DNA from: Luzula sylvatica
Lineage: Eukaryota > Streptophyta > Magnoliopsida > Poales > Juncaceae
Length of the DNA: 64,000 nt
Direction: 5' to 3'
Assembly (NCBI GenBank): GCA_946800325.1
Contig: OX326957.1
Coordinates: 18,759,591-18,823,590 of the forward strand
Below the pieces are notes generated by a model that searched no databases, had not been told where the DNA came from, and was given only the letters and a program-made list of their open reading frames with translations. Positions 1 through 63,005 of this stretch are shown piece by piece. A program made the translations under genes and the position numbers. Within the stretch, counting starts at the first letter, position 1. Each line of letters begins with the position of its first letter.

Positions 1-309
1 GCATAAAACACTTTTATACTCGAAGAGGTCCGTTCGAACGAATATTTACGGTTCGTTCGAACGAACCATCTCCTGTCTCATTTCCGTGTTAATTCCAAAT
101 ATCATTCGTAGTAGTCCGTTCGAACGAACACCAATGTTGGTTCGAACGAACCAATCCCTTGAATGAATATGTGTAAAACCGTTTTACACTCGTAGCGGTC
201 CGTTCGAACTGACACGACGGTTAGTTCGAACGAACCACTCTCTGGAACTTAACTATGCACAATCCTATTATGCATTTAACAACACATCCTTTTCATAAAA
301 TTTCTGTCA
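1..309 (-). mobile_element. Copia LTR, family X with A-type palindromes, truncated by window edge
   Basis: On the minus strand this reads as the U3 part of an LTR. Its complement matches 12170-12400 closely: a GCATAATA block, an AGTTAAGTTCCAGAGAG block, then palindromes and spacers in the same order. Three pairs of TTCGAA-centred palindromes start at 33/56, 119/141 and 203/225. The right boundary at 309 (CTGTCA on the plus strand, so TGACAG on the minus strand) is placed by aligning it with the start of the LTR at 12103. It is probably the 3' LTR of the minus-strand element whose coding debris follows. The rest lies outside the window. Confidence 0.6.
31..230. repeat. A-type palindrome cluster (3 pairs)
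   Basis: Six copies of a TTCGTTCGAACGAA-like palindrome are arranged as three pairs. Distances from TTCGAA core to core are 23, 22 and 22 bp, and the pairs recur roughly every 85 bp. Some copies have decayed on one arm only. Confidence 0.85.
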
Positions 310-2506
310 AGAAATTCGGTTTTGACATCCATTTTTCCACATCACATTGTCATAATACGTGACAATGGAAAACAGAATTTTGAGAATGTGAAAGCATGGC
401 AACATGCGAAAACGTTTCTTCATAGTCCGACTATGAATTACTTGAAACTCTTCGCTGCGAGCCTCGCTTTGCATATATGCAAATTCCTATCCATGTAGGT
501 TCTTCACCTTGAAAACCCATTCACATTTCATGAGTCTAACCCAGAAAGTGATTGAATCAAGTTCCAAACTTGATAATGTACACGGATTGAATCTCAGATT
601 TCATGACACCATGTCTTGTGGAATCAACTTTTCATAGCATCCTTGTAGGATATCGAATCATCATATGATATCGATCTATCATCATTAGCCACGATAAATC
701 CGTATTTATCGGCTTATGATATAGCCTACTTGATCTACGAAAAATTCCTTTGTGTGTTCGACTCGTATTCATCAACTCTTGATGAAGTCGGGTCAACTTT
801 CATCGGTACCATGTTCATTTTCCTGATCTCGAACTCTTTCGAGATTTATTCTACTCCCACTAGCCCGCATAGAGATAAGCGACATCAAGTTCCCAACTTG
901 TGCGCATTCGGTCCTCCTCTAAGAAGGCATCTCTTCGAGCCACGAAAATCTCATTTTCGTCGGGACGTTAGAACCAATATCCTTTAGTTTCCTTAAGGAT
1001 ATATGATAAACGAACAATTTTTAGATTTGAGATTGAGTTTAACCGAAACAAATTTCGAAATATACTCACATCCTAAATCTGTACAAATGACAACTTCGAA
1101 ACCATTCCGATCCATATCTCATATGGCGTCTTTTGTACCGATTAGAAGGTTTATGGTCCATATCATATATGCAACCATTCATTAGTGCCGCTGTCTCAAG
1201 GACGTATCCCAAAACATTTTTGGGAAATCCGTTTGATTTATCATTTATTGAACCATGTCTAACATGCGTTCATTTCCTCTTTTCGAATACATCTCAATGT
1301 TCCGAAATGAAGATAATCGTGAAACGATTCCACAATCATAAATGATCATCAATACATATAAGTCAAATATCGCCTCTTCGATCCTATCGAAGTACATAGC
1401 TCAAATACTCGCCTCCTCGATCCTATCAAAGGGCTTTGATTTTCTTGCTTAGTCGATTTTGTATTTCGTTTTGAAACTCTTTGAACCTTTCAAAAGTATC
1501 CGCTTCGGCACGCATTAAACAGATATTACCGTATCTATTTTAACCGTCCGTAAACGTAACAAAATATTGATAGCTTCCTCTTGCCTCGGAACTTATCGGA
1601 ACATTTACATCTTAATGTAATTTCCAATAATTCGTTGGATCTTTCTCCAACCTTTGGAGAATGATGTCCTTTGTCATCTTGCCTAATAAATAAGTATCGC
1701 ATCAATCAATCGAATCTAATTCGAATGATTCTAGCAATCCATCATATGGAATCTAGATTCGCGTATCTCATTCATATGGCTAAGACGACAATGCCAAAAG
1801 AAGCAATCAACTTCTAGGTTTAATCCTCCTCGGATTTCACTGTTCTTTGAGTCATTAGTCTGGACAACTCCTTGTCCGAACTTTCTGTTTGGAAAACAAT
1901 TTCCCAAAATATCCTTAGACATTTATTTCTTTCGATCCCGCCCTTAAATTACAAGGGCATCCACGCATCTCAATGCATTGGATTCCTTGGATGCTCCAAG
2001 CATCTCCAATTCAAATTTACATCGCATCTCATGCAATTCCGGGATCGACTTATCTATCGAATGCATATGATATTCGGTCATGAAGATCAAATCTCGTACC
2101 ATCAACAGATGAGTGTTAATTAAAGACCCATAAGACGTCTCAAAATTAACCTACTATTTGAGCCGCATTGAACCATTCAACGAGCTCTAGCTTTTGAAAC
2201 TATTTCATGAGCGTTGTGTTTTACTTTCGTATGCACCCGAATTCTCAAAACAATTTTGAGAAATTTGCGTCTACACATGCCACCACAAGGCACGTAATAT
2301 TGTTCGATTCCTTCTTAAAGTGTATCGAACCCGGCTTTCTCAAAAGCCAAAGCCTCGAGCCCCGAATCTACCATTTTCCGTGTCCAACACGTTCCTTTAA
2401 GTCTAAGAACTATTATTTGACTATCAAGGTTAATTATGGTAATTCCAGCCCAAAAGCCATCTATCATATCGATCTCATCGATATATTTGGTGTTGCTTGA
2501 AAACAT
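310..2506 (-). pseudogene. Degenerate Copia gag-pol (minus)
   Basis: Short minus-strand ORFs give recognisable pieces of a Copia polyprotein in the right order. A gag start lies near 2506 (MFSSNTKY). A GAG pre-integrase block with WHCRLSHMNE lies at about 1731-1920. A post-integrase KTPYEIW block, the segment that normally precedes WGC, lies at about 1111-1140. Further remnants run to about 740. Many stops and frameshifts interrupt every domain, so no functional protein is possible. The order agrees with the minus-strand primer site at 3685 and LTR at 3697. I could not place the reverse transcriptase YVDD box. Confidence 0.6.
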
Positions 2507-3684
2507 AATTCTAAACGGATGATGAAGATTAAGCTCCTAACCGTGCGTACTTAATCTATATGCTTATATGATGAATATATGAATGTGTTATTTTTATCGA
2601 ATCGATAACCCTCATACTGATACGGGACTCCAAGTCCATAACACTCAAGACCCATATTTCCGTTCCTCCCACAAGTGACTTTAGCCTATCGGGTGGGATC
2701 CCGTTATTTAGGTAGGATGAATATCCAATCGTATCCAATACGACTCTTGAACCTTTATAGAATTTCGGTGATGGATCGTATCATATACAATCCCAGTTCC
2801 GTGTGTGCATTCTATCTATGCCCCGAACTCCAATCCGATTGGCCTGGACGGTTAAGTCACAACCATATCCAACGTATCGTTCAAATAAGCTACTAGTGAG
2901 TCGACTTTAGCCTGGGCCTCACAAGTCCTGATTTAACGCTTGCCACCCTTTCGATAGTTACAATATCACGTGCCTGACTTTAGCCTGAACCCACGTGAAA
3001 CGTAACACCAAACTCGGTGGTTGTGGACATGGAAGGCATTTCCATGACTTAAATATTAAGAGGGATCATGACATTCATGTTTCTAAATTCGTGACATAAT
3101 CATATTATATCACTATCACAAGATTTCAAAAATGCATATGATTTATTTAGGGAGACTAATTATTCTAAATAATTAATTATATTATATGCTAGAATGTTTG
3201 ATGCCGATCAAATCGATATAAATAACTCAAAATTCCGAGTTTCGTAGCCAAAGTTATCGCGAAAACAAAAACAGCATTCTGCCAACGAGGGGACAGTTCG
3301 TTCCAACGAACTTTAGTGCGTTCGAACGAACCTACCCCTGTCTTTCAAGACTCCTGGTTGCATCCCCGCACCCCCGGTTCGTTCGGAACGAACTGTCCAG
3401 TCAGTTCGAACGAACTGGCCTCTGGGAACCCTGAAAACCCTGTTTTCGTGCAGTTTTTTGCCGTTTTCGCCCGTTTTCGAAGCGATCAATCATGAAACCT
3501 TTTCAAAATCATTCCTAGATACTCTCAATCAACTTTTGATTGATCTCTAGTGAATTCCACTTGTGATTTTAACGGAATTTGACTTTCTTTATATGTAACA
3601 TCATGCAAACGGGTACGGACTTTGATATCCCGTGCGTATATCTAATATACGACTATGATTCGACCCTCGAATCGATGGCGATCA
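2507..3684 (-). other. Non-coding 5' leader of the minus-strand Copia element
   Basis: There is no supportable ORF between the gag start and the primer site. The stretch resembles 10281-11672, the leader of a related element: both contain ACTTTAGCC- or ACTTTGGCC-like repeats (around 2675, 2905 and 2975) and both carry a palindrome cluster just inside the primer site. Confidence 0.55.
3294..3418. repeat. A-type palindrome cluster in leader (2 pairs)
   Basis: Four GTTCGTTCGAACGAAC-like palindromes in two pairs, core to core 20 and 23 bp. They lie about 270-390 bp inside the primer site of the minus-strand element. Confidence 0.8.
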
Positions 3685-3695
3685 CTCTGATACCA
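3685..3695 (-). other. Primer binding site, tRNA-Met type (minus)
   Basis: The minus strand reads TGGTATCAGAGT one base after the LTR end CCCAACA. This is the usual initiator tRNA-Met complement of plant Copia elements. Confidence 0.85.
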
Positions 3696-3696
3696 C

Positions 3697-8153: not shown

Positions 8154-8179
8154 AATGGTAAAGTCCGCCATTGATCGAT

Positions 8180-10280: not shown

Positions 10281-11672
10281 ATCATTTCTACAACAAAAAA
10301 TACTTTTAAATGAAGATTGATACTAACACGTGCGAACTTATTCTATATGCTTATATGATGATATGAAATATGTTACTTTTATCAAATCAATAACCCTAAT
10401 ATTGATTCGGGATTCTAAATCCAATAACACTTCAAGACGCATATTTCGTGATCCTCCCACAATTGACTTTGGCCGACAAATAGGATCTCACTCTTTAGGT
10501 AGGATAAATCCAATCGCATCCAATGCGACTCTTGACCCTTTATAGGATTTCGGTATCGAATCCTATCATATACGATTCGAATTCCATTTTTGCAACCTAA
10601 CTATGCCCCGAAACCCAATCGGATTGGGTTGGACGGTTAAGTCACAACCATGTCCACATATCGTTCAATTGAACTACAAACACGCCCGATTTTGGCCTGA
10701 ACCCGCGATTGTCCTCAATTAACGCGTGCCTTTCACATTGATACATACAACAATGCACACCCGACTTTGGCCTGAAACCGTGCAAAGTGTAAGACCAACC
10801 TCGGAGGTTGTGAATACGAAAGGCATTTTATGACTTAAGTATTATGTAGAGATTTATGTGATATAATCTAATTACATCAATGAGCAAGTTTATCAAGATG
10901 AATGAACATAATTATTGATGATTAGAACCAAAATAAATGAATCAAAAAAATTTTACATGGTCAGTCAAGATGGTTGGTTTAGTCCGTCATGACGGACCAT
11001 ACCAATATTTCTCCTAAATTGGATTTCCCTTGACTTCCGTCATGACGCACAAAACACGTGCGTCGCGACGGACTTTACATGTCCGTCATGATGCCAGCCA
11101 GTGCGTCATGACGGGCTATACAAAACTATTTTGTTGTCCAATACAGAAACTTTTCAAGTTCGTCCTTCATGACGCTTGGTTATAGCGTCACGACGGACTA
11201 TACTGGACCATCACGACGCCAGCTTGTGCGTCATGACGGACTGTACAAAACAATTTTGTACATATTTCCAGAAACTTTTTGGGCTTCATCCGTCACGACG
11301 CACCAACTGGTCCGTCATGACCGTACCAATTTACACAGTGCGTCATGATGCACAACTTTTGTTTGTCACAACGGACAGAGTGTAGCGTCTCAGATCCAAC
11401 TTTTGGATTTCCCGATACCGTGTGTGCATCACGACGGACCACCCGAAAACTATTTTACTTTGTAATTTTGACTTATTTTAACCGTTTCAAAAATGATTAA
11501 TCATGAACTTTTCATGATTACTTCTTGATTCTTTTGATCATCTCATGATCAAATACTAGTAAGTTTTCCTATGGTCCTAATTTTATAACTACATGATTAT
11601 GTCCTAAATTCTCAACAAAATTCCGAATAATTCTTATTCGAAATCGATTCGACGATTGAATCATGGCGATCG
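10281..11672 (-). other. Non-coding leader of minus-strand Copia element with B palindromes
   Basis: No credible ORF. It is homologous to 2507-3684 in its gag-proximal part (the block with TCCTCCCACAAKTGACTTT, then GGTAGGAT, then a GGACGGTTAAGTCACAACCAT segment). The primer-proximal part differs and holds B-type instead of A-type palindromes. Confidence 0.6.
10982..11442. repeat. B-type palindrome cluster (about 14 sites)
   Basis: Repeated CCGTCATGACGG/GCA palindromes, often in pairs spaced 20-23 bp core to core (for example near 11040/11063, 11085/11105 and 11294/11316). Many sites show single C-to-T or G-to-A changes within CpG, as in CATGATG for CATGACG. Confidence 0.85.
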
Positions 11673-12221: not shown

Positions 12222-12625
12222 GGTTCGTTTGAACTAACCATCGGGTCCGTTCGAACGGACCGCTTCGTGTATAAAATGGTTTTATGCGTAATCATTCCAG
12301 AGAGTGTCCGTTCGAACGAATCTTGTAGTTCGTTCGAACGGATGACTACGAATGTAATTATGGAATTAACACATAAATGAGACAGAGAGTATATGTTCGA
12401 ATGAACCATGATGTTCATTCTAACGAATCTTGTAGTTCGTTCGAACGGATGACTATGAATGTAATTATGGAATTAACACATAAATGAGACATAGAGTATA
12501 TGTTCGAACAAACCATGATGTTCGTTCGAACGGACTTCTTTGGGTATAAAAAGGATTTTATACATTCTTATGACAGAAGCTGTGCGTTCGAATGAACTGT
12601 ATTATGCGTTCGAACGAACATGCTG
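12222..12625. repeat. A-type palindrome cluster in U3 (5 pairs)
   Basis: Ten GTTCGTTCGAACGAAC-like sites in five pairs. I counted 22 bp core to core in all five. The cluster lies just upstream of the TATA box. Confidence 0.87.
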
Positions 12626-13250: not shown

Positions 13251-13662
13251 TTTCGATGAACGCCTACGTTCATCTACTCTCATGCGTACAATCTACAAGA
13301 ATTGAATCGTATTCAGTTTCTTGGGTCGGGACAACTCGTGCACTCTTTGGCTTTCAAGAATTGAATCGTATTCAGTCACCAACACACAAATACCGGTACA
13401 TTTCAACAACACGTACAAGTGAGCTTCCATTACATATCTTCGATCAAAAAAACCTGATCCTCAACAACTTCCATGACCGGACTAATAAAAAATGGAGCAC
13501 TCTTGTTCATTCGAGTGTTCACCAAGATCGGCATTCCTATGAGGCTGGGTACCTTTCGTTAACACATCTTTCGCAAAATAATTTGAGCAAAAATTTGCAA
13601 CCTCCTCTAACACGTATGCTTCTACAATTTGACCCCTCCACGCTTGTTTTATTTCTCACTTT
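13251..13662 (-). pseudogene. CACTA TNP2 transposase remnant, 3' part
   Basis: The minus strand beside the Athila insertion reads KVRNKTSVEGS and then, after a frameshift, a segment like the end of the DUF4218 domain of En/Spm (TNP2) transposases, where VRNKARPEGSIAEAY-like text is usual. It continues the reading at 24628-25410 once the Athila element is removed. A direct repeat of AAGAATTGAATCGTATTCAG lies at about 13298 and 13348. Not functional. Confidence 0.65.
13658..13662. repeat. Target site duplication, left copy (ACTTT)
   Basis: ACTTT flanks the 5' LTR. The partner is at 24628-24632. Confidence 0.9.
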
Positions 13663-14073
13663 TGATGTGAGGCAAATAAGGCACAAATTTAATGCTTAAT
13701 TTGGGAATTTTAGCCCTTGTGAAGAACAATTATATATACTTTATTAATCATATTTGAGATAACATGAATATTTCTTCACTAAGTGTGTTTTATTGCTTAA
13801 TCACAGGAATTAGAAGGAATTTCTGGGAATTTGGAGAGTGTAGTTGTCTCCAACACGTCAAGAGGAATGAAAACGATATATTACACCGATATATTCGGTA
13901 CATGAATGAGACGGGAGGCAAACAATTGTCATGATAGAAACTTACACAAAAGTCTACACGAAAACCACTCAATCCTTAGCCCTTATCCTGCCCACCTACC
14001 TTTGGTGGTAATTACCTCCTTACCCCCAATCCTCTCCATCAACTCGTGGCCAATAAGAAGACTCCATGAGTGC

Positions 14074-14082
14074 TATAAATAT
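14074..14082 (+). promoter_or_regulatory. TATA box of Athila LTR
   Basis: CTATAAATA lies about 410 bp into the LTR, with an identical copy in the 3' LTR near 23336. No other TATA-like site stands as close to the start of the TC-rich leader. Confidence 0.6.
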
Positions 14083-14121
14083 GACCACAAGGGCCACGAG
14101 TTTGGGGACGCTCTTTTACGC

Positions 14122-14231
<110 letters not shown>

Positions 14232-14889
14232 GCAAGTCCAAGAACCTTCAAGAACACGCAAGAATCACAAATACGAACGATAATTTTCTAAAATCGATCA
14301 CCGAATAGAAGCTCACTTCATTCGGTGAATCGGTTTACACTTCGGCTAAGGAAAAGTTGTGGAATTAGGGTGAAATTTATTTCATTCGAACTTTCACAAG
14401 CAAGGAGTCGAGCTTTCTCGGCGTGATTGGTTGGAAGCTTCTTTTCAATCGACCTTTGCACATCTCGAGCCCACCCAACCGGTACGAAGCTCACTTCTAT
14501 TGGCGGGTGGATCGGTACGGAAGGAAATTGTTGGGCGCGTTGACTAGCTCTCTAGCATCTCGAACAACAAGGAAGGCACTCAAGACGAGACTCGGAGCTC
14601 TCTTCATCTCTCTAGGTGTTTTCCTTCCTTTCTTGCATTTCTTGTAGCATAAAATTACTTGGATTTGTGTGAATCTCTTTTCTTGTTTGAATCTTTTGTT
14701 ACGAATCCTTGTTAATTGTTTGAATTGTTCTTGTTTGAATCGAAATCATGTTCACAATTTGCTCTTAATATGATTTTTGTCCATTAATTACTGTTTCAAC
14801 TTAGTTCATTGTTCCTTAATTCAATCATTAATCTTTCCTTTCAATACAATCCTTAAGCCAAATAATAAACCAGAATTCCAGTGAATATT

Positions 14890-15235
14890 CCGTTGTAACG
14901 GAACTCATACTGCGTTGTAACGGACTTGGTGGTTAGTACTTGATTTTCAGTCTGTTGAGACTCCGTGGTAACGTAGTTGATGTCCGTTGTAACGGACTAG
15001 TGGAGTTAAGCACTCGTGATTACTCTTAACAGTCCGTTGTAACGGAGTATTAGGTCCGTTGTAACGGATCCACCAATCCGTTGTAACGCTACTCCTATCC
15101 GTTATAACGTACTACATCTTTCCGTTGTAACGGAATACTCTCCGTTGTAACGGACGTTCATATCCATCTCTACGCTAGCCATAACCCTAATGTCCGTTGT
15201 AACGGAACTTAATTCCGTTGTAACAGACTATCTTC
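14890..15235. repeat. C-type palindrome cluster in 5' LTR
   Basis: About a dozen TCCGTTGTAACGGA-like sites, many paired: core starts at 14892/14914 and 15036/15058 (22 bp each), others at 20-21 bp. The 3' LTR repeats the cluster at about 24107-24450. Confidence 0.9.
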
Positions 15236-15411
15236 TGTGAATTTTCTTCGTTATTTCTCATCCATTTTGATCCAAATTTTGACGCAATTGCTCCCCGTGG
15301 AACGAATCTATACATTTGCCACTGTACAAACTTAGATTACAAATTTTGTTGATTGTTCGGGGTTTTAACACAACGACATATTAAACACTCCAAAAAAACC
15401 CGCTCATCAAA

Positions 15412-15428
15412 TGGCGCCGCTGCCGGGG
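15412..15428 (+). other. Primer binding site, tRNA-Asp type
   Basis: TGGCGCCGCTGCCGGGG lies two bases after the LTR end. From memory, Athila and Tat elements use TGGCGCCGTTGCCGGGG complementary to tRNA-Asp, one base different. The same sequence occurs beside the Z LTRs at 42495 and 54508. Confidence 0.8.
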
Positions 15429-15521
15429 AGCGGTGTTTAAGTCAATATTTTAGATCAAAATTTGAGATTTAAATTCGTAACATTGTTTACTCACTTCTTT
15501 GTTTCTTTTGTGACAATCTAG

Positions 15522-15974
15522 GTGAAGGAAGAAAGCTTTATGCACAACACAAGATCACGAAAAGGAGAATTACTTCCGTTTGTCAAAGAAATCGAAAGAA
15601 GGAACAAGAGCTCTAAGAATGGCAAGGAATCGACACAAGAAGATCAAGACGAACCTCAACTTCAAACTCAAACTTTTTCTTCTCTCTCTACTCATTTAAA
15701 TTCAAACATGGGTGATGAAACTAGGATTCCAAGGCCGAAAACATTAAAGGAATTAGTGGCCCCAAATATCATAGAAGATAATTACAATTTTATTAGGCCG
15801 AATATACCGAACTTTAAAGCCGATCCGAGCATCATTGGCTCTTTACCCATCTTTCATGGCAAAGCAACCGAAAACCCACATAAGCATTTGAAAGATTTTA
15901 AGATTCAACTAAACATCTATGCAAATTATGAAGCATTTAACGATATTCTACTTCTTATTTTTCCTTATTCGTAG
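15522..15974 (+). pseudogene. Athila gag, N-terminal part, ended by frameshift
   Basis: A 150-residue frame starting MKEESFMHNTRSR and reaching the LPIFHGKATENPHKHLKDF block that opens the retrotransposon Gag domain. It stops at a TAG right after IFPYS. The expected continuation (KDWFYNL) is present in another frame from 15971. One missing base near 15970 explains the break. In this lineage gag and pol normally share one long frame, so the copy as read cannot make full Gag or the fused polyprotein unless ribosomes shift here. A sequencing error is possible. Confidence 0.85.
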
Positions 15975-18900
15975 GTGAAGGGCCAAAAGATTGGTTCTAC
16001 AACCTACGAGGACCCCTCGATTTCAATGAAGTGGCTAGGCGTTTCAAGGAGAAATACTACTCGCATTCGAGATTGGCGGCAATTAGGCGAGAACTTCTAG
16101 CAATAACGCAAAAGCCAAACGAAGCTCTCCACGAGTATTATGATCGATTCAACCGTTTGATGGAGGAATGCCCAAGCCACAATGTCGAGGTCCATTTCCT
16201 TTACGAGCAATTCATCCAAGGGCTAGGATACTCCGAGAGTCAATTCCTCAACGCATCCGCGGGAGGAAGTATCGCGAACAAAGATCTAGAAGAGATTAAG
16301 AAGCTACTCGAAGTAATGGCAACCAATTCTCAATCAAGAAGGAATGTTGAATACCGAGTTAATGCGTGTAGCGACCTCAATGTCGACATGCTTAACAACA
16401 AGCTCGAGATTATCATGAAGGCTTTGGGTAAAGAGGAAACGAAAACATGTGGGGTTTGCCTCGCAAATACACACCACACCGATGAGTGCCCGAGTGTGAT
16501 CGAAGATGCAAATGCCCTTTACAAGAAATTCGACGCCTCGAACTCGTATAATCCGAATCTCCGCAACCACCCTAACTTTAGTTGGTCGAATCCCAACAAT
16601 GCTCAACCCGATCCGTATCGACAAGCGGTTGAAAAACCGGCCACGTACCAACATCCAAATGCGACTCAAGCGGTTCAAAAACCGATTCCAACTCAAGATC
16701 CAAATCAAGATATCAAATTGATGATGGAAGGGATGATGAGTATGATGACCTCAATGAAACAAGAATTGAAACAAGACAATAAACAAAACATGGACTCGAT
16801 GAGGCAAGATATTGGGATGGTGAAGCAAGAATTGAAGCAAGAGATCTCAAGTGTAAAGCAAGAGGTTTCGAACACGAATCGCCATGTGGGCAACTTGGAG
16901 ACTCAAATCAATCAAATTGCCACTCGAGTAAACGTAATCGAATCCCAAGGTACATCTCGACTCCAATCTCAATCGTTGGCTCCTTCCGAGCAAAGGCATG
17001 TGAACGCAATATCGCTCCGAAGCGGTAAAGAGATAGGCGAAAGTTCGAAGAGCAAGAAGTTACAAGAAGAAAAGGAGCTCGAGGTACCGGTACCGAAAGA
17101 GAGTCCGACTCAAGCCACGAAGATACCAACTCAAGAACTAGAAACCGAATCGACTCAAGTCAAGCCACCTTTCCCGAGTCGTCTCCCAAAGCCAATCGAA
17201 TCGAACAACGACGTGCTTGCCATCTTAAAGAAAGTGGAGGTGAACATTCCTCTACTCGAAGCAATCAAAGAAGTGCCTCGTTTGGCAAAATACCTCAAGG
17301 CATTGTGCACGAATAAAAGAAAGACAAAGGGAGATGAGTTGATTAGTGTGGGGGAGAGTGTTTCGGCAATCTTGAGACTCCCCCAAAAGCACAAAGATCC
17401 GGGGATGTTTGCTATCCCTTGCAAAATCGGGCAACATGAATTACCGAAATGCATGCTTGATTTGGGCGCTTCAATAAATGTGATGCCATACTCGATATTC
17501 AAGACTCTCGACCTAGGCCCCCTCGACGATACTCAAGTTGTGATCCAATTGGCCGATCGGTCCACGACTCGACCGGTTGGAGTGATCGAAGATGTGATAG
17601 TAACCGTGAATGGATTGCTATTTCCCGCGGACTTCTACGTTTTGGATATGAATGAGGGGAATAGCGATTCAACTCCAATTCTCCTTGGACGGCCATTTTT
17701 GAAGACGGCGCGCACAAAGATCGATGTACACGCGGGAGAGCTCACAATGGAGTTCGATGATGAGGTAATCAAATTCAATATTTTTGACAAATTAAAGGAA
17801 CCCATTGTAGGTACACTCAACTTAAGCGCTATGGACGTGATCGACGATTGTGTACAAGAAGTCATGGATAGATCACTCGAAAACCTTCAATGGAGCTCAA
17901 ACCCTTTGTTCGAAGAATTTGAAGGATGTGACAATCCTACATTCGAAATCGAGTCGGAGTTGGAAGAAGAACGAAGCATAGATCAAGCACTTTTTCTAAG
18001 AGATTTCGAGATTCCGATGAAGCGAACTCCACCCTCCACCGAACAAGCTCCAAGGTTAGATCTAAAATCACTACCTTTTGGACTAAAATACGTATTTTTG
18101 GATGAAGCGGAGACCTTGCCGGTGATAATTGCCTCGAGTCTAGCAAAAGAACAAGAAGAGAAACTCGTTGAAGTGCTTAAACGGAACAAGAAGGCATTCG
18201 GGTGGACACTCGCGGACATTCCGGGCATTAGTCCCTCCATGTGCACGCACCGCATTATCCTCGAGGACGATGCTAAGCCCTCGCGAGAACCACAAAGGCG
18301 GCTCAATCCGCCAATGATGGAAGTTGTAAAGAAAGAGGTGATCAAGCTACTCGACGCCGGAATAATCTACCCCATCGCCGATTCGAAATGGGTCTCGCCC
18401 ATACACGTGGTGCCGAAGAAAACGGGGATGACGATAGTTGAGAACGATGAAGGCGATCAAGTGCCGACTCGAGTTCAAAACGGGTGGCGAGTTTGCATCG
18501 ATTACCGAAAGCTCAATAAGGCGACGAAAAAGGACCACTTCCCGCTTCCATTCATCGATCAAATGATAGAAAGACTCGCGGAAAATCCGTTCTATTGCTT
18601 CCTCGATGGATTTTCGGGCTATTTCCAAATACCGGTCGCACCCGAAGATCAAGAGAAGACCACATTCACGTGCCCGTTTGGTACCTTCGCGTACCGACGC
18701 ATGCCATTCGGGCTATGCAATGCTCCGGGTACTTTCCAAAGGTGTATGATTTCTATTTTCTCCAATTATATTTCCAAATTTATAGAAGTCTTTATGGATG
18801 ACTTTTCGGTATTTGGTGACTCATTCGAATCATGTTTAAGCCACTTGTCACAAATACTCGAAAAGTGCATCGAAGCTAACCTTGTTTTGAATTTTGAGAA

Positions 18901-20959: not shown

Positions 20960-21101
20960 TGAGCTCGGCCAAGTCGAGCTCAAGACGTTAAACAAGAGCG
21001 CTAGTGAGGGAGGCACGCCCACGCATCAAAGGTTGTATCTCTCCATTATCCCTCTTTTTGAAATTTTCGATTTTTTTATACTTGAGGACAAGTAATCTCT
21101 A

Positions 21102-21114
21102 AGTGTGGGGGGGT
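21102..21114 (+). other. Second polypurine-tract-like sequence
   Basis: AAGTGTGGGGGGGT, preceded by GAGGACAAGTAATCTCT. It parallels the true tract at 22909, which is preceded by GAGGACGATCAAGGATT. It lies 143 bp after the pol stop. Confidence 0.6.
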
Positions 21115-21194
21115 AACATACAATCTTTGACCTGTATGAGCCCAATTAAAAATTTAAAAATCAGGGAAAATTGAAATTTTTTGATCTGGCCAAT

Positions 21195-21540
21195 AACTCC
21201 GTTGTAACGGACCTCAATGTCCGTTATAACGGACTGTACAGAAATTTAAAAATTTAACTGGCGCCAAGAGTTACGTTGTAACGGACCTCAATGTCCGTTA
21301 TAACGGAGTGAAAATACCGTTGCAACGGACATGAAAAACACAGGAAATTGCGTTGCAACGGTAAATTCCCAAAATTTGCCAGAACTATGTGCGTTGTAAC
21401 GGACCTCAATGTCCGTTGCAACGGACATACTCAGAATTTTCAACCTAAGCTACGAATAGTCTCCGTTATAACACAGTTAGTAAGTTGTAACGGACTTCAA
21501 TGTCCGTTGTAACGGACTTTAATTTGCGTTATAACGGAAT
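21195..21540. repeat. C-type palindrome cluster in 3' UTR
   Basis: About ten TCCGTTRTAACGGA or GCAACGG variants. A repeated double-site module with spacer ACCTCAATGTCC gives a constant 22-bp core distance (for example 21201/21223). Same motif family as the LTR cluster of this element. Confidence 0.9.
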
Positions 21541-22068
21541 AGTTTCTGGCAAGTTTTTTCTTTTAATTAAAATTTTCAAACATTTAACATTATTTTTGAA
21601 CCCTGAGCATCAATAATAAATAAGTCAATCAATAAATGCATAAAAAGATTTTTCTCCACTTCATTGAATTAAAATTGTTGGTTTTTAAACGAATTTTCAC
21701 CGAACCACCATTTCTACTCTCAAAATTTTAATTTTACATAATATTTGAAGAATTGTGGTTGAAATCTTTAAGAGATTCTTTCGGGGATTCAAGCCCTAAT
21801 CAATACTTTCACAAATTAATGAGTTTTGACAATTTGATCGATCCTCGTTTTACATGGCACACCATTTTCAATAAATAAACCCATTTTGAACTTGGAATTT
21901 CTAAAAAGTTTTGTTTGAACCAATTTAGTAAGTTTTGCTTGAATCTTAAAAGTTGACCATTTGCACTTAAAGGATCCGACCGTTCATGGGAATTCGAAAT
22001 TACACTAACGGGAACCAATTTGCGCTCAAAGCTTGATTCGATGAGCTCATGCACCTTGATTAAGTAAT

Positions 22069-22908: not shown

Positions 22909-22920
22909 AAGTGTGGGGGT
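22909..22920 (+). other. Polypurine tract before 3' LTR
   Basis: AAGTGTGGGGGT directly upstream of the 3' LTR start at 22924. It is the plus-strand DNA priming site. Confidence 0.85.
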
Positions 22921-22923
22921 ATT

Positions 22924-23383: not shown

Positions 23384-23449
<66 letters not shown>

Positions 23450-53382: not shown

Positions 53383-54366
53383 TTAGTGTGGGGGCCTATA
53401 TATGCCATTATTATCTCTACAAAAGTTGTTATTGTTATTTCTCCAACCATAATTCGAATTTAAAAATTGTACCTCCTCTTGGTTGGCATCACAATCTTTC
53501 GTCTCGTGTCCTTGCACACCACATGCGTCACAAGCGAACGTAACTTGCCTCTCTTTCGACCGCGGCTTGCTCAAATCGACGTGCTCGAGCTTCCTCATGA
53601 GCATGTCTAGCTCGGCGTTTATGGTTGTTATCGCGTCGACTTCTAAAACACCTTGTGGCCCCGTCGTGGGGGCGCGATCATTCGACCATCCATGGTAATT
53701 GAGGGCCATGTTCTCGATCAACTCCCAAGCTTCCTCCACACTCTTATCCATCAATGCACCTCCCAAAACCGCGTCGAGGTTGGCGTGGGTCTGGTAGGTG
53801 ACTCCATTGTAAAACGTTTGCAAGAGCAGCCACTTCGCTAGGCCGTGACGAGGTCACACGCCTTGTAATTCCTTGAAACGCTCCCACGCTTCGTATAAGC
53901 TTTCGTCTGCATTTTGTTGAAAACTCGTAATCTGGGCGCGTAACATGGTTGTTTTGCTGGGCGGAAAGTACTTGCCGAGGTATGCGTCGCAGAGTTGGTT
54001 CCACGACATAAAATGTCCGTCGGAGTGACCGTAAAGCCATTGTTTTGCCTTGCCCCAGAGAGAAAAAGGAAAAAGAGTTAGCATGATAGTATCATTCGAA
54101 ACTCCATTTACCTTTACCGTGCTCACTTTTTCGTATAGATTTTGTAAGTGAGCGTGCGGATCCTCCATCGCACCACCACCGAACTGATTGGCTTGCATCA
54201 TATTTAGAAGCGGTGTTTTGAGCTCGAAATTGTTTGCAGCGATACCAGGTGGCGCGATGCTTCTCCCATTTGACGTGGCGCTGCGCGAAGTGTATTCACG
54301 TAGAGCACGTGCGCGAGGCGGAACTGGTCGGACATTCTCTTCTTGATTCGGTTGGTTTTGCTCCAT
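53383..54366 (-). pseudogene. Z gag (minus), frameshifted
   Basis: 54366-53854 starts MEQNQPNQEENVR and holds the Gag core (FPFSLWGKAKQWLYG, YFPPSKTTMLRAQITSF, SLYEAWERFKEL). A frameshift or stop near 53850 separates it from 53823-53383: QTFYNGVTYQTHANLDA, a region ending CDACGVQGHETKDC (CCHC zinc knuckle) and an Asn-rich tail. The motif order is that of Athila Gag. Non-functional as read. Confidence 0.87.
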
Positions 54367-54524: not shown

Positions 54525-54531
54525 AAAAGCT

Positions 54532-56088: not shown

Positions 56089-57368
56089 GTTATCTAATAT
56101 CGATAATCATTGCAGAGATTATAGTCTTAGTAGAGATTGTAGGTATAAACGCTATATCAGCCAATACTTACTCAATATTAGTGCATTTCAAAAAAATTAA
56201 TAAATTTTGATTGCATTTATACTTATATGAATACTGGTGCAAGGTTGTGTAATTTGATTACAAGAACCTCGAATTATGTCTTGTGTGAGCGTCTACATAA
56301 TACGTGATTATGTAAAGTAAAACCGTCACATTTCAAAAGTTATATTTCAAAAACGTCCCTAGTCACGATTAGGATACTTATGTGATAAGTATATCTATTA
56401 TAAGATAATTGACTAACGTGTATACTAGCGTATTCGGCGAGGTGATGATTATGTTTTGCTAATCATAGGACAAAGAGTTTGTCGAATCGGGAATATGGAT
56501 ATGCATTAGGTTATGCATATTGTGACTTGACCAAAAATGCGATACCGTGACATGGTTTAGTCATTGTAGATGGAATCGTATGCGTAACATGATGCGTGCG
56601 TAACATGATGCTTAGATATAGTCTTCCACTATATGTAACATGATGGTCATGGGATTATGATCGGGTATTATCTGAAACACGAAATTTGATGTGAGTCATC
56701 AAGATAGAAATTGTTCCTTTCGAGAGAAAGATATATCTGAAAGAAAATATGGCTTAAGAATTAACTTGGAAGAATTCATATAAATAGGCAATTCTGTAGT
56801 CAGAATTAGGTTCGTTCGAACGAACTATATGAGTTCGTTCGAACGGACTTATTCGTGATAGTCAGAATGAACGAACCATTTAAGTGGGTTCGAATGAACT
56901 GGGTTCGTTCGAACGAACCATTTAGGTGCGTTCGAACTGACCTAATTCCTATATATATATATATATATATAATTATGATTTCGTTTTAACCTAGGCCTTT
57001 TTCAGAATTAGGGTTTTGAGCCGCCGTTTTCTCTCTCTTCTTCCACAGAAAATAGATTAGATCTAGAGTGATTTAGAGGGAGATTTGAGCAAAGATCTTG
57101 AGAGAACCGATCGTGACGGCGACAAGAACGACGTTGACGATTCCGATCGGACGAAATCAAGGTGGACACTAGTAGAGGGATTGCACGAGCGCTCCTTGGA
57201 GAAGGTTCACTGATTTGGAGAAGAAGGCATCACGTACTAACTCGTACGAGGTAATTTCTCCAACTCTTCCTTTTTGGATGGTTTTCGAGCGTGATCCGGG
57301 TAGAATTAGGTTACGCATGCGAAACTAATTCCGCTGCACACCTTGATAAACATGTGCGTAACCCTACA
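56089..57368 (+). mobile_element. 5' LTR of Copia family Y (plus), 5' end cut by Z
   Basis: It ends GTGCGTAACCCTACA one base before the primer site. ATATAAATAGG lies near 56780, A-type palindromes at 56810-56940, then (AT)n and a leader with TCTCTCTTCTTCC. The upstream part aligns with the inverted fragment at 40280-40926. Confidence 0.75.
56810..56945. repeat. A-type palindrome cluster in Y LTR
   Basis: Six GTTCGTTCGAACGAAC-like sites just downstream of the TATA box. Clear pairs have 23-bp core distance. Confidence 0.82.
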
Positions 57369-57369
57369 G

Positions 57370-57381
57370 TGGTATCAGAGC
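57370..57381 (+). other. Primer binding site, tRNA-Met type (Y)
   Basis: TGGTATCAGAGC, a perfect plant Copia site. Confidence 0.92.
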
Positions 57382-58823
57382 AATCGCTCGTTAAAACCAT
57401 CGAAAATCGATGTTTTATTTCGAATTTAGGAAATTTTAGAATTTTTGGGCTAAATTGCAAAATTACACAAAATTGAGCAAAAATACATGATAGAAAGACC
57501 TTTAATAAATCAATTATTGGATATTTGTATGTTATTAAAGTGATAAACAGATTGGATATGTTGAAAATTGGATTTTCGGAACGAAACGACAAAGAAATCA
57601 TGTTTACAGAAAACTGACAGATTAAGGTTCGTTCGAACGAGTTCGTTCGAACGGACTAAATGAACCTAGGGTTCATACGAACGAACTTGGAGTTGCGTTC
57701 GAACGAACTTAAGGTGAAAATTTTTCTGTTGTGCGTTCGAACGAACTTGGAGTTGCGTTCGAACGAACTGAATTCAGAAAAAAAAAAAGTGAATTTTTTT
57801 TTTCTTCTGTCGTGCGTTCGAACGAACTTGGAATTGCGTTCGAACGAACAAAATTCTGGACAACCAAATTTTTTTCTGTCAAAAATGCCCAATAATTTAT
57901 AAATTCGATTCGGTATAGCATATAGCCTAAAACGGGGATGATTGTCTGTGAATGCTTGTATGTGTGTTGTGTGGGGGCCGGTGAGCTTTCCAAATTGTAT
58001 TTTATTTAAATATGTGGGGATCGGTGAGTCTTCCAAAGTTGTAATAAAATAAAATAGGTTTAGTTTTGAAGAGGGACCTTCAAGGCAAGACGACACGACA
58101 CGGAGATTGGATCTTCAAAGCAAGGAATCATCTTGGGTTTTAGGGTTGGGAATTTAGGGTTTTATGATTGCTTATAAAACTAAAAGGCCAATATGCTATA
58201 CCGTAATATTTTATTTGTTTTTCTGAATGAATAAAATAAATGATTTTAAAAAGAAAATCCTCCCACGTAATTATCAAGTTATTTGCCTCCCAAAATGGAA
58301 CCTTCGAGACTAGTGTTTGTTTATTTGTGTTGCATGGCCATAGTCTAGCACAGATTTACACATACGTAGCAAGGAAGGCATGCATTGATTAGGAGTTGAC
58401 GTGTTGCATGGCCATAGTCTGGCATGTCAATTCGCTAATTGAATGATACTCCATTTGTGGTTTGGACTTGACCAATTCGCTAGCTAGGCTACGATTTGGG
58501 GCAAGGAGTGAGGTACACACACTCTGGTTTTTAGTTGGACTCAATACCGGACCTCACGAATAAAGCAAGAATCGTCTTGGAGATGATTGGACACCGTCCT
58601 ACCCGATGTGACGTATTTTCTGAGTAGTTGGCCATAGTCACCTTGGAAATACGTTAAATAGGGATCTTGCCCATTATGAGCTTTAAGGTATCAAATCTCC
58701 GTTTCAATAGTGGGGGCTATTTGAAATGATAAAATAATGGGTATTTCAAGTTATTTAAAAATGAATTTTAATATATGAAAGACCACGTTATTAATTACAT
58801 TATTTTTCAAAATTGTAGAATTT
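57382..58823 (+). other. 5' leader of Copia element Y
   Basis: Non-coding, 1.4 kb. It holds an A-palindrome cluster, a repeated GGCCGGTGAGCTTTCCAAA / GATCGGTGAGTCTTCCAAA phrase (57975, 58020) and a repeated GTTGCATGGCCATAGTCT (58333, 58403). Confidence 0.7.
57630..57852. repeat. A-type palindrome cluster in Y leader (4 pairs)
   Basis: Core starts 57676/57698, 57736/57758 and 57817/57839 are exactly 22 bp apart. The first pair (57632/57646) is 14 bp apart. Three pairs share the spacer ACTTGGARTTGCG. Confidence 0.92.
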
Positions 58824-59174
58824 ATGGCTTTACCAAGTAACAACCGCTTTAGTTTGCGTTCCATTTTGGAAAGGGAACGAATGAACGGAAAGAACTTTCT
58901 CGACTGGCAGAGGAATCTGGGATTCGTTCTGAACAGGAAGGAAAGGCACATGTCTTGGAGACGCCTCTCCCTCATGTACCAGGGAATAAAACAACTGAGG
59001 ATGATGTATTCGAATATACGACCATGTTGGACGATTCGAATGATGTCACATGCCTCATGTTGGCTACTATGACTCCTGAATATCAAATACAGTTTGAGAA
59101 ACAGGATGCATACGAGATTATGAAACAACTCAGGGAGATGTTTCAGGTTCAAGCAAGGGTGGAGAAGTATCAAG
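58824..59174 (+). pseudogene. Copia Y gag, N-terminal part
   Basis: It starts MALPSNNRFSLRSILERER with GKNFLDWQRNLGFVL, shifts frame near 58950, then reads DDSNDVTCLMLATMTPEY, DAYEIMKQLREMFQ and RVEKYQV up to an inserted LTR end. Homologous to the gag at 8508-10280. Truncated; the remainder is lost at the junction at 59232. Confidence 0.85.
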
Positions 59175-59232
59175 TGATGGGAATTCACCCGTCCCCGGAC
59201 CCGCGCAGCGCATATGAAGGCCCGGTCCGGTG
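59175..59232 (-). mobile_element. 58-bp stub of an X-family LTR
   Basis: TGATGGGAATTCACCC then CCGCGCAGCGCATATGAAGG matches the primer-proximal end of X LTRs (3697, 44792). It is antisense to the gag it interrupts and abruptly joined to minus-strand W pol at 59233. Confidence 0.85.
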
Positions 59233-60010
59233 ACAATTGAGTTGCCTTTTTCATTTTCAACGAGTGTGCAAAATTTGATGAAGTTGTCACACGTTTCACT
59301 TTTATGGAGTAAATAATACACCCATGCGAAACGTGAGTAATCATCCACAATTACAAACATATACCTTTTATTACCTATGCTCGAGACGCTTAGTGGACCG
59401 CAAAGATCGAGATGGATGAGTTGCAGAGGTCGGATTGTGGTGACCATATTCTTCGATTTGAACCCGGATGACCTCGTGTGCTTACCCTTTTCACACGCAT
59501 CGAATAACCCTTCTAATTCAAGTTTATGAGATGGTAATCCTCTAACTAATTCCTTTTTGGATAACCTATAGATAGTTTTCATACAAATATGGCCTAATCT
59601 TCTATGCCATAATCGAGCTACCGACTCCGATACGGTGAGACAATGAATTCCCGGCACGAAAGATTCAAAATCGAAGTAGTATAGATTTTCGTGTCGGGTT
59701 CCTTTGCATACCGTGATATTATCTTTTATTCGATCAATCACACATGAGCTTTGATCGAATTTTACACAATATCCGGCATCACATAATTGGCTTATGCTAA
59801 TCAAGTTATGTTTAAGTCCTATTACGAGATAGACATTTTCTAGGGTCCAATTTGAGGTACCTATGGAACCGATACCGACAATTTTACCTTTTTGATTTCC
59901 TCCGAAGGTAACGTCTCCTCCCTTGAATGGTTCGAGAGATTTAAACATCTTTCGATCCCAAGTCATGTGTCTCGAACAACCACTATCTAGACACCACTTT
60001 GATGACTTGG
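59233..60010 (-). pseudogene. Copia W pol: protease and integrase N-part (minus), truncated
   Basis: Upstream of the Met at 59966 the frame contains the protease site WCLDSGCSRHMTWD (near 60000). Then GNQKGKIVGIG, LKHNLISISQLCDAGY, GAG pre-integrase (LWHRRLGHICMKTIYRL) and integrase LIHLDLCGPL with the first catalytic Asp, VDDYSRFAWVYYLL and NEKGNS, where the sequence is cut by the LTR stub. The remaining integrase, RT and RNase H are absent. It resembles the SIRE/Maximus group. Confidence 0.87.
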
Positions 60011-60160
60011 TTTTGGAGGTTAAGCCCCATCTATAAGAAATTCATATTAGTTAAACCATAAATTGAAATTAAACTAATATGAATTCTTATTTACTATACT
60101 CCCCCTCAATATTTGGCTTATGGTATGGTAATATGAGGGAGTACAGTGTCACAGTTGGGC
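60011..60160 (-). other. Non-coding gap between W gag and protease
   Basis: A roughly 150-base interruption with stops in all frames. On the minus strand it ends TTTCTTATAG just before the protease reading, like an intron acceptor. It contains a perfect 14-bp inverted repeat AATTCATATTAGTT at 60039-60052 and 60072-60085. Confidence 0.5.
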
Positions 60161-61708
60161 TTAAGCCCTAGGGGGTCCAATACCATATGAGGTAGAAGGA
60201 CCCATTGTGTTACGATCTTTGCGCATCCAAACGACGTTAGACGTCAATTTTGGATTGCAACAATAATTACAAAAGACCACGGTTGGACTATTTGTGGTTG
60301 TGGAACTCTTAACAAAATAGTTGGAGAGTGAGTTTGAGTTACTTCTTTGAGGAATTATCGATTTTGGCATTTGATGATATTGATTTGATTGAAATTGTTT
60401 TGATTTAAATCGGGATGGTTGAAAATATTTTTGTGTGTTGGTGTAATGTTTGGGAGCCCCTTTTTGATACGAAGCCTCGGTGTAGTTAGTCACTTCATAG
60501 AAGTAACCATTTGGTCCCCGTTTGAATAAGCAATCGGTTCTTCCCAAATTGTTACGTCTAGGTTGTGAATTTTGTGCGAAATGATTATTCCTATAATTAT
60601 GATTAACAAGTTTAGGTTGTTCCTTTTTCACATTTTTACCCTTGTTGTAATCATGGTACATGAAAGCACTCCCACGACTACTAACTCGATTGTTCTCCCA
60701 TGTTGATTTTTGATTTTTGGAGTTGGAAGAATCGAGTTTATTACCGTTATTCTTCTTATATCCTAAACCGGATTTGTCATTGGGCTTTTGTCCCATGAAT
60801 GACGATTTCAAAATTTCATCCAATGAAGGAGGACTCGATGCAATGGATGCACAAGCCTTCTTCAAGGAATCATTTTCAATTTTAGAATTTTGAAGTTCGA
60901 CTTTTAAGTGAGCAATCTTGCCTTTTAAAGCTTGACATTCACATTTTGAAAAACCTTTAAATTCATGTATTTGAGATTTAAATGCCAAAATAGATAGTTC
61001 AAGAGAAGCTATCTTATCCTTGAGAGCTTGTGTTGAGCTCTCAAATTTACCCCTATTTCGTTGAGAGTTCCCATCATCCCTCAAGAACTGGTCACAAGAC
61101 TCAATTTCTAATTTTAACGAGGGTGAATATTGAGGTTGATGTAATGATTCCAAATTAAGTATAGATTCGATACGTACCTCATGACCTTGGTCATGTGTCG
61201 ACTTTGGAGTAGGTGTAGAGGGTTCGACATTGACGACCACGGGTGTGTGAGGTGTCTGGATTGGGCCCCGTTCAATTCGGAGAGATTTAATTGCCGCTTC
61301 CACCGCGCTCATTGATGGAGAGTCGATCTTTACCATAAGGGCTAGGTTTGCGTTGTGTAGGTTTGATGAACCATTCGAGTCGGATGATGAGTTTGATCCG
61401 TTCGTTTCTCCCAACCTATAATCAACCTTTGTGATGTGAGCCTTTTTCGTTTTGTATTCCTTACCTTTGTATTTTTGGCGATCTTTTTGACCCTTGTCCT
61501 CGTGTCTCTTTTCGTGTAGAGTTTCTCTCCTTTCCCGATTTGTTTGGTCATCATCCCTTTTGGACCAATGGGAATTTTCGGGATATAGCGTCCAACATGA
61601 CTTGTCGTTGAAGTTTGAGATGTTTGAATTGGGGACGGTATTTATCGGATTTGTAAATGAATTTTGTACGATTGGGTTAATTTTGGCCATTAGATCTTTG
61701 AAGTACAC
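60161..61708 (-). CDS. Copia W gag C-terminal region (515 aa, minus)
   Basis: A 515-residue uninterrupted frame. It has a charged KR/ED-rich N-part (ERRETLHEKRHEDKG), Ser/Thr-Pro stretches, a coiled-coil-like middle (LKDKIASLELSILAFKSQIH, LKVELQNSKIENDSLKKA), an Asn/Gln-rich basic tail and, near the end, FCNYCCNPKLTSNVVWMRK, which stands where the CCHC knuckle is expected but lacks the usual GH. The canonical N-terminal gag domain is missing: the frame starts only 36 bp from the primer site. Likely a gag deletion derivative of a SIRE/Maximus-like element. Confidence 0.7.
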   Translation of the reverse strand: MYFKDLMAKINPIVQNSFTNPINTVPNSNISNFNDKSCWTLYPENSHWSKRDDDQTNRERRETLHEKRHEDKGQKDRQKYKGKEYKTKKAHITKVDYRLGETNGSNSSSDSNGSSNLHNANLALMVKIDSPSMSAVEAAIKSLRIERGPIQTPHTPVVVNVEPSTPTPKSTHDQGHEVRIESILNLESLHQPQYSPSLKLEIESCDQFLRDDGNSQRNRGKFESSTQALKDKIASLELSILAFKSQIHEFKGFSKCECQALKGKIAHLKVELQNSKIENDSLKKACASIASSPPSLDEILKSSFMGQKPNDKSGLGYKKNNGNKLDSSNSKNQKSTWENNRVSSRGSAFMYHDYNKGKNVKKEQPKLVNHNYRNNHFAQNSQPRRNNLGRTDCLFKRGPNGYFYEVTNYTEASYQKGAPKHYTNTQKYFQPSRFKSKQFQSNQYHQMPKSIIPQRSNSNSLSNYFVKSSTTTNSPTVVFCNYCCNPKLTSNVVWMRKDRNTMGPSTSYGIGPPRA

Positions 61709-61744
61709 GTTATCCCTAATATTCTAAGAGATGGTTAGTACCTT

Positions 61745-61756
61745 GCTCTGATACCA
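61745..61756 (-). other. Primer binding site, tRNA-Met type (W, minus)
   Basis: The complement reads TGGTATCAGAGC, two bases inside the LTR end. Confidence 0.92.
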
Positions 61757-61758
61757 AT

Positions 61759-63005
61759 TGTTGGTTAAGTCTAACCTTGAGGGGGGTAATCTAGGTAATT
61801 TACCGTACAATTACTTTATCTAATTACCTAGTTCACTATGCGGAATAAATAAAAATTTAAATGAAATAGATGATACCGTAAACACTTGAACACAAGATGT
61901 TTTTTAACGAAGTTCGGTGTAGCTTTAACTCACCCTTTACTCGCTTAATTGACCGACTCAATTAGTTGCGAGTACCTACGTCTCCGGGAATGCCTTGCGC
62001 CTCTTTTTGGCGTTCAATTGAATTCCAACTCACTCGATTACAAGGTTTTGCCTAGATCGATTTACACGCTTCTATCGATCTATAGCTAGGTCTCTTACAA
62101 GTTTCTTGCACTAGCCTAATACACTTTTCACTAATCAAACTACAACGTGATCGGTCACGTGAGTGGGAAACGATTAGTGAAGGGATTTCGAAATTAGATC
62201 AGTGATCTAGAGGGATTTCTCAAAGCAATCAATGGATATAGCTTATCTCGGCTTTTAAGGTTTTCTCTCAATTCTTGAAAATGGATATAGAGTGTGTAAT
62301 GTTTCAAGTAGTGAGAGAAGAATCCTTGAGGGTTTGTATTTATACTCTCTATAGAAACCCTACAGAAAATTACTAGTCCGTTCGAACGCACAACCTTTCG
62401 TTCTGAACGCACTGTAATTTGAACTAGCCGTTTCAAATAACGCAATTGTACTTTTGACTGTCCGTTCGAACGAACAATATGTTCGTTAGAACGAACTCAA
62501 TTATACATTGTTTTTGCCTCATTACAGTAGTGATATTCGTTCAACGCTCTTAACTTGTGAGTGAACGAACGAAGAGTTCGTTCTGAACGAACATTTGGTT
62601 CGTTCGAATGCACACACTACTGTAATGAGGTTGATTCAATCAAGTGATGAGTTTTTAGTATGTAACAAGTTCGTTCACAACGAACTTGATGTTCGTTCCA
62701 ACGAACTTGATACTGGATTGAACTCTTCGTTATTTGAACATGATTGTACTCGAGGTCTACTCGGTTTTTATCTATGGTTTATTTTATTTGTGGCGAATCC
62801 CACTCACGGAAGGCTTCGACATCTTGATTCTTGATATGCTTCAAGGGCCTTCCTTCTAATCTTCTTTTAGTTGTGCTTCTTGTGACTTCGAGACTCTTCG
62901 TCATCTTCGTGTCGTACTTGCGTTATCCTACACACTATCTTGATATAAACGTTAGTAATGACAGTGTTTTGAAATAATCAAACCATTAGGAAATTTGAAC
63001 CAACA
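61759..63005 (-). mobile_element. 5' LTR of Copia family W (minus)
   Basis: 1247 bp, plus strand TGTTGGTTAAGTCTAACC to AATTTGAACCAACA. A minus-strand TATAAATAC lies near 62336 with A-type palindromes upstream of it (62370-62710). Related copies: 8180-8508 and 38167-39068. Confidence 0.88.
62370..62712. repeat. A-type palindrome cluster in W U3
   Basis: About ten TTCGTTCNGAACGAA-like sites, some with one extra central base (GTTCTGAAC) and core distances of 20-22 bp. Confidence 0.85.

Follow-up and report, generated by a model that had tools for sequence, protein, structure and literature searches.

CpG-bearing palindromes of Copia and Gypsy retrotransposons in Luzula sylvatica share one dyad motif and are spaced mostly at whole helical turns

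The window analyzed here, a stretch of 64,000 nucleotides from Luzula sylvatica (Juncaceae; GenBank assembly GCA_946800325.1, contig OX326957.1, positions 18,759,591 to 18,823,590), contains arrays of short CpG-bearing palindromes in and around long terminal repeat (LTR) retrotransposons. The palindromes are variants of a single dyad, neighboring copies lie predominantly 20-23 bp apart throughout the genome, and in the sampled arrays the longer gaps also fall mostly at whole turns of the DNA helix. Arrays occur in both Copia and Gypsy elements, as the first-pass annotation of this DNA had claimed, and the cores are less diverged than the surrounding DNA. Judged from sequence, the arrays were probably shaped by a dimeric protein whose copies would cooperate on one face of the DNA, in the LTRs and internal noncoding DNA of both superfamilies. 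The palindromic repeats of plant LTRs, long known yet unexplained, can thereby be put to the test with a physical rule, in which sites share a half-site and lie on one face of the helix, whole turns apart.

The first-pass annotation described three families of palindromes, A, B, and C, with unrelated cores and a common paired architecture at about 22 bp. All nine pairs that it quoted were found in place, the second site of the B pair 35774/35796 being weak (TGCATCGTGACGGA). The cores turned out to be related: A, B, and C are variants of a single 16-bp dyad, GTNCGTYNNRACGNAC, which differ mainly at the center and have in common the frame T-Y-CGT-Y-NN-R-ACG-R-A. One half-site is thus combined with three center types, CG in A, GT, AC, AT or GC in C, and CGTC..GACG with AT, GT or AC in B. 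A G is added before the dyad and a C after it (G 0.68 at position -1 among 140 outer sites, the second position being degenerate). In the window, A gave 54 matches (up to 3 mismatches) against 6.0 expected, B 18 (up to 2 mismatches) against 1.0, and C 136 (up to 3 mismatches, rows on both strands) against 9.1; because the motifs are alike, the match lists overlap, that of C including some A and B sites. Expectations come from dinucleotide shuffles, and 0 of 100 shuffles equalled any of the three counts. Exact A occurs at 4,100 sites in the genome and its reversed-pattern control at 2; shuffles and reversed-pattern controls together rule out a chance origin of the sites.

Positions 2 and 13 complemented each other within a site 245 times in 460 sites, against 158 expected, and 86 times in the 153 sites of 13 representative arrays, against 54.5 expected; part of the excess is a difference between families. 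Asymmetric centers mostly keep the same orientation within an array (GT 11:0, AC 12:0, GT 10:2, GT 8:2, AC 9:2, AC 5:1), and in two related Gypsy elements whose sense was mapped, GT is the commoner center on the sense strand. Centers of GT or AC in one orientation were noted at 14889-15227, at 21198-21538, and at three loci elsewhere in the genome (L011, L040, L041; such further loci are numbered with L). Outside the arrays a CCAG box recurs at a constant place: with both sides of the arrays pooled and flanks deduplicated, 20 of 204 flanks have CCAG at -11 and 21 have CAGA at -10. Lying beyond the outermost palindromes, the box may mark a second factor or a cap. In some B pairs (L042, L049, L054) the spacer itself is nearly symmetric, e.g., CACCATATGGT, and the pair approaches one 32-bp palindrome. 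Another CpG palindrome, CGCGCAATTGCGCG, occurs at 27259, 28429 (one change), and 37200 as single copies in A+T-rich repeats of the window, where it forms no arrays. A 363-bp tandem repeat that fills 10 kb at L008 (C2:5.00 Mb) contains the core CGTYNNRACG 14 times, and thus a satellite carries the core too. The half-site may resemble the MYB (AACGG), NAC, and bZIP sites and the CENP-B box.

The spacing of neighboring cores was scanned over 445,347,901 bases in 37 contigs, six of them of 60.5-77.2 Mb; the window lies in contig C2. Pairs of the form CGTYNNRACG N{0,30} CGTYNNRACG, with spacings of 10-40 bp, numbered 43,528, against 32 for the reversed control. As many as 37,425 of them (86%) fell within four of the 31 spacing values, 20-23 bp, where the control gave 3, and the proposed excess at this distance was thus confirmed for the genome. 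A spacing of 50-53 bp was found in 13,690 pairs (control 5), most of the examples listed having no site in between (by eye, no exact count). At 45-48 bp there were 2,679 pairs (control 5), and about 47 of 50 distinct places listed contained, by eye, a third and often degenerate intermediate site (22-23 bp twice, or 29 + 19). The places listed all come from the start of C1.

Pairs are only the first step of longer arrays, in which gaps occur near 21-22, 31-33, 41-42, 50-53, 62-64, 71-75, 82-85, and 95 bp. An array was defined as at least 3 sites with up to 2 mismatches and neighbors no more than 130 bp apart (at least 2 sites in the second and third sets below). The first set, from the window and L001, L003, L011, L017, and L019, comprised 18 arrays and 127 neighbor gaps, excluding the array copy at 24107. 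Most of its 52 gaps of at least 28 bp clustered at 41-43, 50-53, 61-64, 70-73, 82-85, and 95 bp, with a Rayleigh R of 0.60 at 10.5 bp (phase -0.6 bp); without gaps whose intervening sequence could be aligned, R was 0.57-0.58 (43-47 gaps). Because the pattern had been seen before it was tested, two further sets of loci were fetched. The second (L020-L037, places with exact A, still including L020, the partner of L003) gave a mean cosine of 0.44-0.49 over 35-41 deduplicated gaps, and the third (L038-L054, places from the genome-wide pair scan) 0.59-0.61 over 38-43.

Pooling yielded 57 arrays with 403 gaps, 211 of them at 20-23 bp (121 exactly 22) and 165 of at least 28 bp. These counts leave out L002, L003, L004, and L020 (overlaps or copies of L001 or L055; L002 and L004 overlap L001 and L003) and include the 24107 copy, whereas two identical L055 repeats are counted among the 403 gaps and removed by the homology filter only. 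Most pooled loci were chosen for holding the motif; L008 was scanned and had no array, and other arbitrary places were without a core site. The homology filter kept 92 of the 165 long gaps, with R 0.505, and 67 of these were no more than 2.1 bp away from a multiple of 10.5 bp, where 36.8 would be expected. Phasing was present in each family, with mean cosines of 0.41 for A (n = 51), 0.59 for B (n = 16), and 0.59 for C (n = 27). With motifs masked, the 57 arrays formed 13 homology clusters, the largest of 18; one array per cluster left 49 gaps, with R 0.44 and a Rayleigh p of 7e-5. When every pair of sites 28-250 bp apart in these 13 arrays was used, the period came to 10.58 bp (bootstrap 10.52-10.86; R 0.31), a strength that 0 of 500 jittered sets equalled. 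Clustering with motifs unmasked was discarded, as 52 of the 57 arrays merged through the motifs themselves and 12 gaps remained (R 0.48, p 0.06).

The idea of the first-pass annotation that 22 bp, close to two helical turns, puts both sites on the same side of the DNA is strengthened by these results, because most longer gaps are whole turns as well; its picture of a tetramer or two dimers does not suffice as the full rule, the phasing reaching about nine turns. A 22-bp pair as the entire rule was likewise rejected, the longer gaps being phased too, and so was a regular 22-bp ladder with missing middle sites, which predicts 44, 66, and 88 bp whereas the observed modes are 50-53, 62-64, and 71-75 bp.

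Tandem duplication is clear in some arrays, at 21198-21538 (spacer cctcaatg repeated), 57628-57848, and 12305-12532. It is not the sole source of pairs, since the 40 pairs of the first set at exactly 22 bp have 36 different 8-bp spacers, which fall into 20 classes at less than 6/8 identical. The persistence of symmetric CpG had been taken as a sign of selection, an argument that proved weak: CpG observed/expected was 1.16 in the window and 0.48-1.54 in 15 arbitrary 10-kb places, and persistence alone says little, as this genome shows no general depletion of CpG. It was therefore rejected as proof of selection, and cores were compared with flanks instead, a core position being one of a called site in either aligned sequence. 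In eight alignments of homologous arrays from different elements, 295 of 304 non-CpG positions were identical in cores against 2179 of 2549 elsewhere, and 257 of 289 CpG positions against 182 of 239; these figures are sums over alignments selected by the authors from those listed (65 were computed), some loci entering two of them. Cores are thus less diverged than their surroundings. In these summed counts CpG positions were less often identical than non-CpG positions, in cores and elsewhere, which fits CpG decay, although a position counted as CpG when either sequence had CpG, and this by itself biases the result in that direction. A 124-bp satellite fills the 10-kb places L005 and L018 (C1:5.0 Mb and C6:5.0 Mb; CpG observed/expected 1.33 and 1.54), and L006, L007, L010, and L015 share the G+C content of these places, near 0.28. 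The L. sylvatica genome paper gives 25.10% of the genome for the top satellite and contains the term "124-bp" (PMC11538461).

One host is a Gypsy element on the plus strand at 13661-24628. Its 5' LTR (13661-15410), 97.1% identical to the 3' LTR (22922-24628), is followed by the primer-binding site TGGCGCCG, and an open gag-pol frame (15941-20956, plus strand; searched as two pieces) encodes gag and reverse transcriptase, RNase H, and integrase in Gypsy order. We take the element to be Athila-like, TGGCGCCG presumably being the primer-binding-site type of that lineage. C arrays occupy both LTRs, at 14889-15227 (12 sites; gaps 22, 51, 21, 50, 22, 22, 21, 23, 20, 52, 21) and as a copy with 11 called sites at 24107-24445, and stop some 180 bp short of the LTR end; no clear TATA box was seen by eye between 15227 and the LTR end. 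A third C array of 12 sites (21198-21538) lies behind pol, 241 bp past the last sense codon of the frame. A related element at C1:89.4-98.6 kb repeats this layout, with C arrays at C1:89.4, 95.6, and 98.3 kb; its gag is 86%, its reverse transcriptase 95.5%, and its integrase 88% identical to those of the window element. Gypsy frames between C arrays were found in the window and in L057. On the Copia side, an A array at 62377-62705 (gaps 84, 21, 95, 22, 72, 21) lies upstream of a gag-like frame of 520 codons (60164-61723, minus strand), gag by its place just upstream of a Copia pre-integrase/integrase fragment (59133-60041, minus strand) and without a Pfam match; a protein search with the fragment did not resolve a Copia lineage. 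In L056 a frame with 71% identity to this gag-like frame (492-residue alignment) is flanked, and also followed, by A arrays. The L056 stretch (C1:589200-595700), with its gag-like frame between A arrays, has no Copia integrase match, and presumably resembles a TR-GAG element.

Further A arrays of the window lie at 29-234 (6 sites; gaps 23, 63, 22, 62, 22), 3297-3414 (20, 61, 23), 12224-12618 (9 called sites; 22, 61, 22, 85, 22, 85, 62, 22), 56811-56993 (23, 70, 23, 53), and 57628-57848 (8 called sites; 14, 30, 22, 38, 22, 59, 22). B arrays lie at 10983-11438 (10 called sites; 53, 23, 43, 82, 43, 62, 22, 51, 63) and 35771-35991 (7 called sites; 22, 52, 22, 16, 73, 22), and another C array at 38374-38693 (9 sites; 20, 42, 53, 22, 71, 22, 53, 23). 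At L055 (C1:516500-526400) two direct repeats, 3.6 kb long or more and with 99.97% identity, hold an A array with 15 called sites together with a B array of 5; they are 5,159 bp apart, the second running off the stretch, with a 180-codon frame between them. The locus is a very young LTR element, perhaps non-autonomous, or else a tandem repeat. In the genome paper, Copia/Angela makes up 10.15%, Gypsy/Athila 2.61%, and Copia/SIRE 1.58% of the L. sylvatica genome (PMC11538461).

It is proposed that each palindrome would be the site of a putative homodimeric (or paired-domain) DNA-binding protein with the half-site RACGNAC, and that bound dimers would cooperate with their neighbors on one face of free B-form DNA; sites would be kept at whole turns because of this cooperation, most often two, then five, six, and seven, and sometimes three, four, eight, and nine. 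Symmetric sites, less-diverged cores, and whole-turn spacing at the period of free B-form DNA together point to a dimeric protein with copies in contact along one face of the DNA, and the position of the arrays in LTRs and behind coding regions points to control of the element. The arrays may thus form a cis-regulatory nucleoprotein platform in the LTRs and the noncoding DNA behind the coding region, most likely for element expression or anti-silencing, and related factors that differ in specificity may recognize the different center types. A bolder version, possible but held with more doubt than belief, is that a single family of dimeric proteins, perhaps element-encoded or domesticated, is common to Copia and Gypsy here and builds, on LTR and internal arrays, a one-faced, helically registered higher-order complex; this would shield the elements from silencing or else drive them, by a code of control shared across superfamilies.

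Several observations weigh against the cooperating dimer. Motif positions -1, 1, and 12 are degenerate; 25 of the 92 filtered gaps lie off the 10.5-bp grid; and some gap families are off phase, at 58 bp (one B family), at 38-39 and at 18-19 with 24 bp (A families), and at 45 bp. In A the phase signal depends largely on the 62-64 bp gaps, and the strict test with one array per cluster is weaker than the pooled one. Gaps are not independent, as arrays descend from few ancestors and homology older than the reach of BLAST may remain, and genome-wide counts are of copies, not of independent events. An older, decayed repeat pair in L017 lacks core constraint (31 of 40 core positions identical, 1064 of 1210 others). 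Pfam scans of the element frames found no DNA-binding family above the cut-off, and no binder was found; below it were Transposase_32 in L055 (1.4e-5) and Copper-fist in the window at 53386-53853, minus strand (0.018).

The same spacing might simply have been inherited, if a few ancestral units of 22 + 52 or 22 + 63 bp were duplicated in tandem and the remainder diverged, the phasing then being a side effect of two or three original lengths. Agreeing with this are the repeat periods of about 73-74 and 85 bp, the recent duplications in some arrays, and the grouping of the 57 arrays into 13 homology clusters. We consider it unlikely, since intervening sequences often cannot be aligned, as the gaps that survive the homology filter illustrate, eight gap classes lie on the grid (some with only about 4 gaps), and nothing in such a history explains why the original lengths of all three families, A, B, and C, should be multiples of 10.5 bp. 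A slightly less probable reading still is that the arrays work at the level of RNA or single-stranded DNA, neighboring palindromes forming a hairpin of 14-16 bp with a loop of 6-8 nt, used in the element life cycle or serving as a source of host small RNAs. Any two of the palindromes can pair, being self-complementary, centers are mostly co-oriented with GT on the sense strand of the two Gypsy elements, which permits G-U pairs, and one report describes maize Sirevirus palindrome clusters that attract small RNAs and proposes them as such a source (PMC10760457). A hairpin, however, requires neither whole-turn gaps of up to about nine turns nor the symmetry of each single site.

The grid could also reflect a rotational setting on the nucleosome, with all sites facing outward or inward. 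A periodicity of about 10 bp would suit it, and so would window arrays spanning 118-456 bp, or one to three nucleosomes. Nucleosomal DNA has a period of roughly 10.2 bp, however, which the fitted value and its bootstrap range exceed, and this explanation appears improbable. Equally improbable is that a host protein for silencing or insulation targets the sites, which the elements cannot lose or which the host has spread, without benefit to the element. The same dyad in two superfamilies would fit such targets, as would methylation of Luzula retrotransposons in CpG and CHG, described in the genome paper (PMC11538461), but elements would then be selected to lose the sites, yet cores are kept between lineages. 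The cooperating dimer remains the favored explanation, and it makes a direct prediction: a cooperative binder for which two sites are active at a spacing of 21-22 bp, inactive at 26-27 bp, and active again at 31-32 bp. The identity of the binder would tell whether one host factor was borrowed or whether the retrotransposons possess an anti-silencing system of their own. The shared dyad suggests that unrelated superfamilies in one genome came to use the same site grammar.

Among known systems, proteins on one face of DNA cooperate at whole-turn spacing in promoters and operators; to our knowledge, helically phased cooperative sites come from single promoters or designed constructs, whereas here the phasing is written into very many transposon sites. 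Among the open-licence papers listed in searches around LTR palindromes and helical spacing, no title or opening of an abstract reported a whole-turn spacing rule for such palindromes. Palindromic cis-regions are known in several transposons (PMC10760457). The closest functional model is provided by the VANC targets of Arabidopsis VANDAL DNA transposons, which two papers describe as dense arrays of short motifs in noncoding DNA that evolve by tandem repeats and vary between related elements, the elements encoding the binder, whose expression goes with a loss of methylation; the VANC21 motif YAGTATTAY lies in one orientation (PMC5735166, PMC10398659), and neither "palindrom" nor "spacing" occurs in PMC5735166. 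The arrays described here are likewise dense, lie in noncoding element DNA, grow in part by tandem repeats, and come in motif variants, but those assigned to elements are all in LTR retrotransposons and not in VANDAL/MULE DNA transposons.

The closest relatives in kind are the repeated motifs of Sirevirus elements, described as short, mostly CpG-bearing palindromes with 8-32 copies per element, located in the LTRs and, in ENV-bearing elements, also in the linker that precedes ENV (Bousios et al., 2010; PMC2829016). A CpG island and a TATA box follow shortly after the Sirevirus motifs. The motif varies between elements around a conserved core, CGG-CCG in 12 of 13 motifs, and is called Sirevirus-specific there; "helical" and "spacing" occur in reference titles only. 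As in Sireviruses, many palindromes occupy one LTR (12 and 11 sites in the Gypsy LTRs; in L055, the LTR-like repeat has 15 A sites), and extra copies lie behind pol (21198-21538 and the second Gypsy element), where no ENV gene turned up in Pfam scans of single frames, no further search for ENV having been made. The CGG-CCG core is absent, and CGGAC..GTCCG occurs only across the spacer of some pairs. Palindromic LTR arrays themselves are thus known; new relative to the Sirevirus motifs, which belong to Copia elements, are the CGT-ACG core of the consensus dyad, the Gypsy-order gag-pol elements as hosts of C arrays, and, relative to the motifs as far as that source describes them, the setting of sites mostly at whole helical turns.

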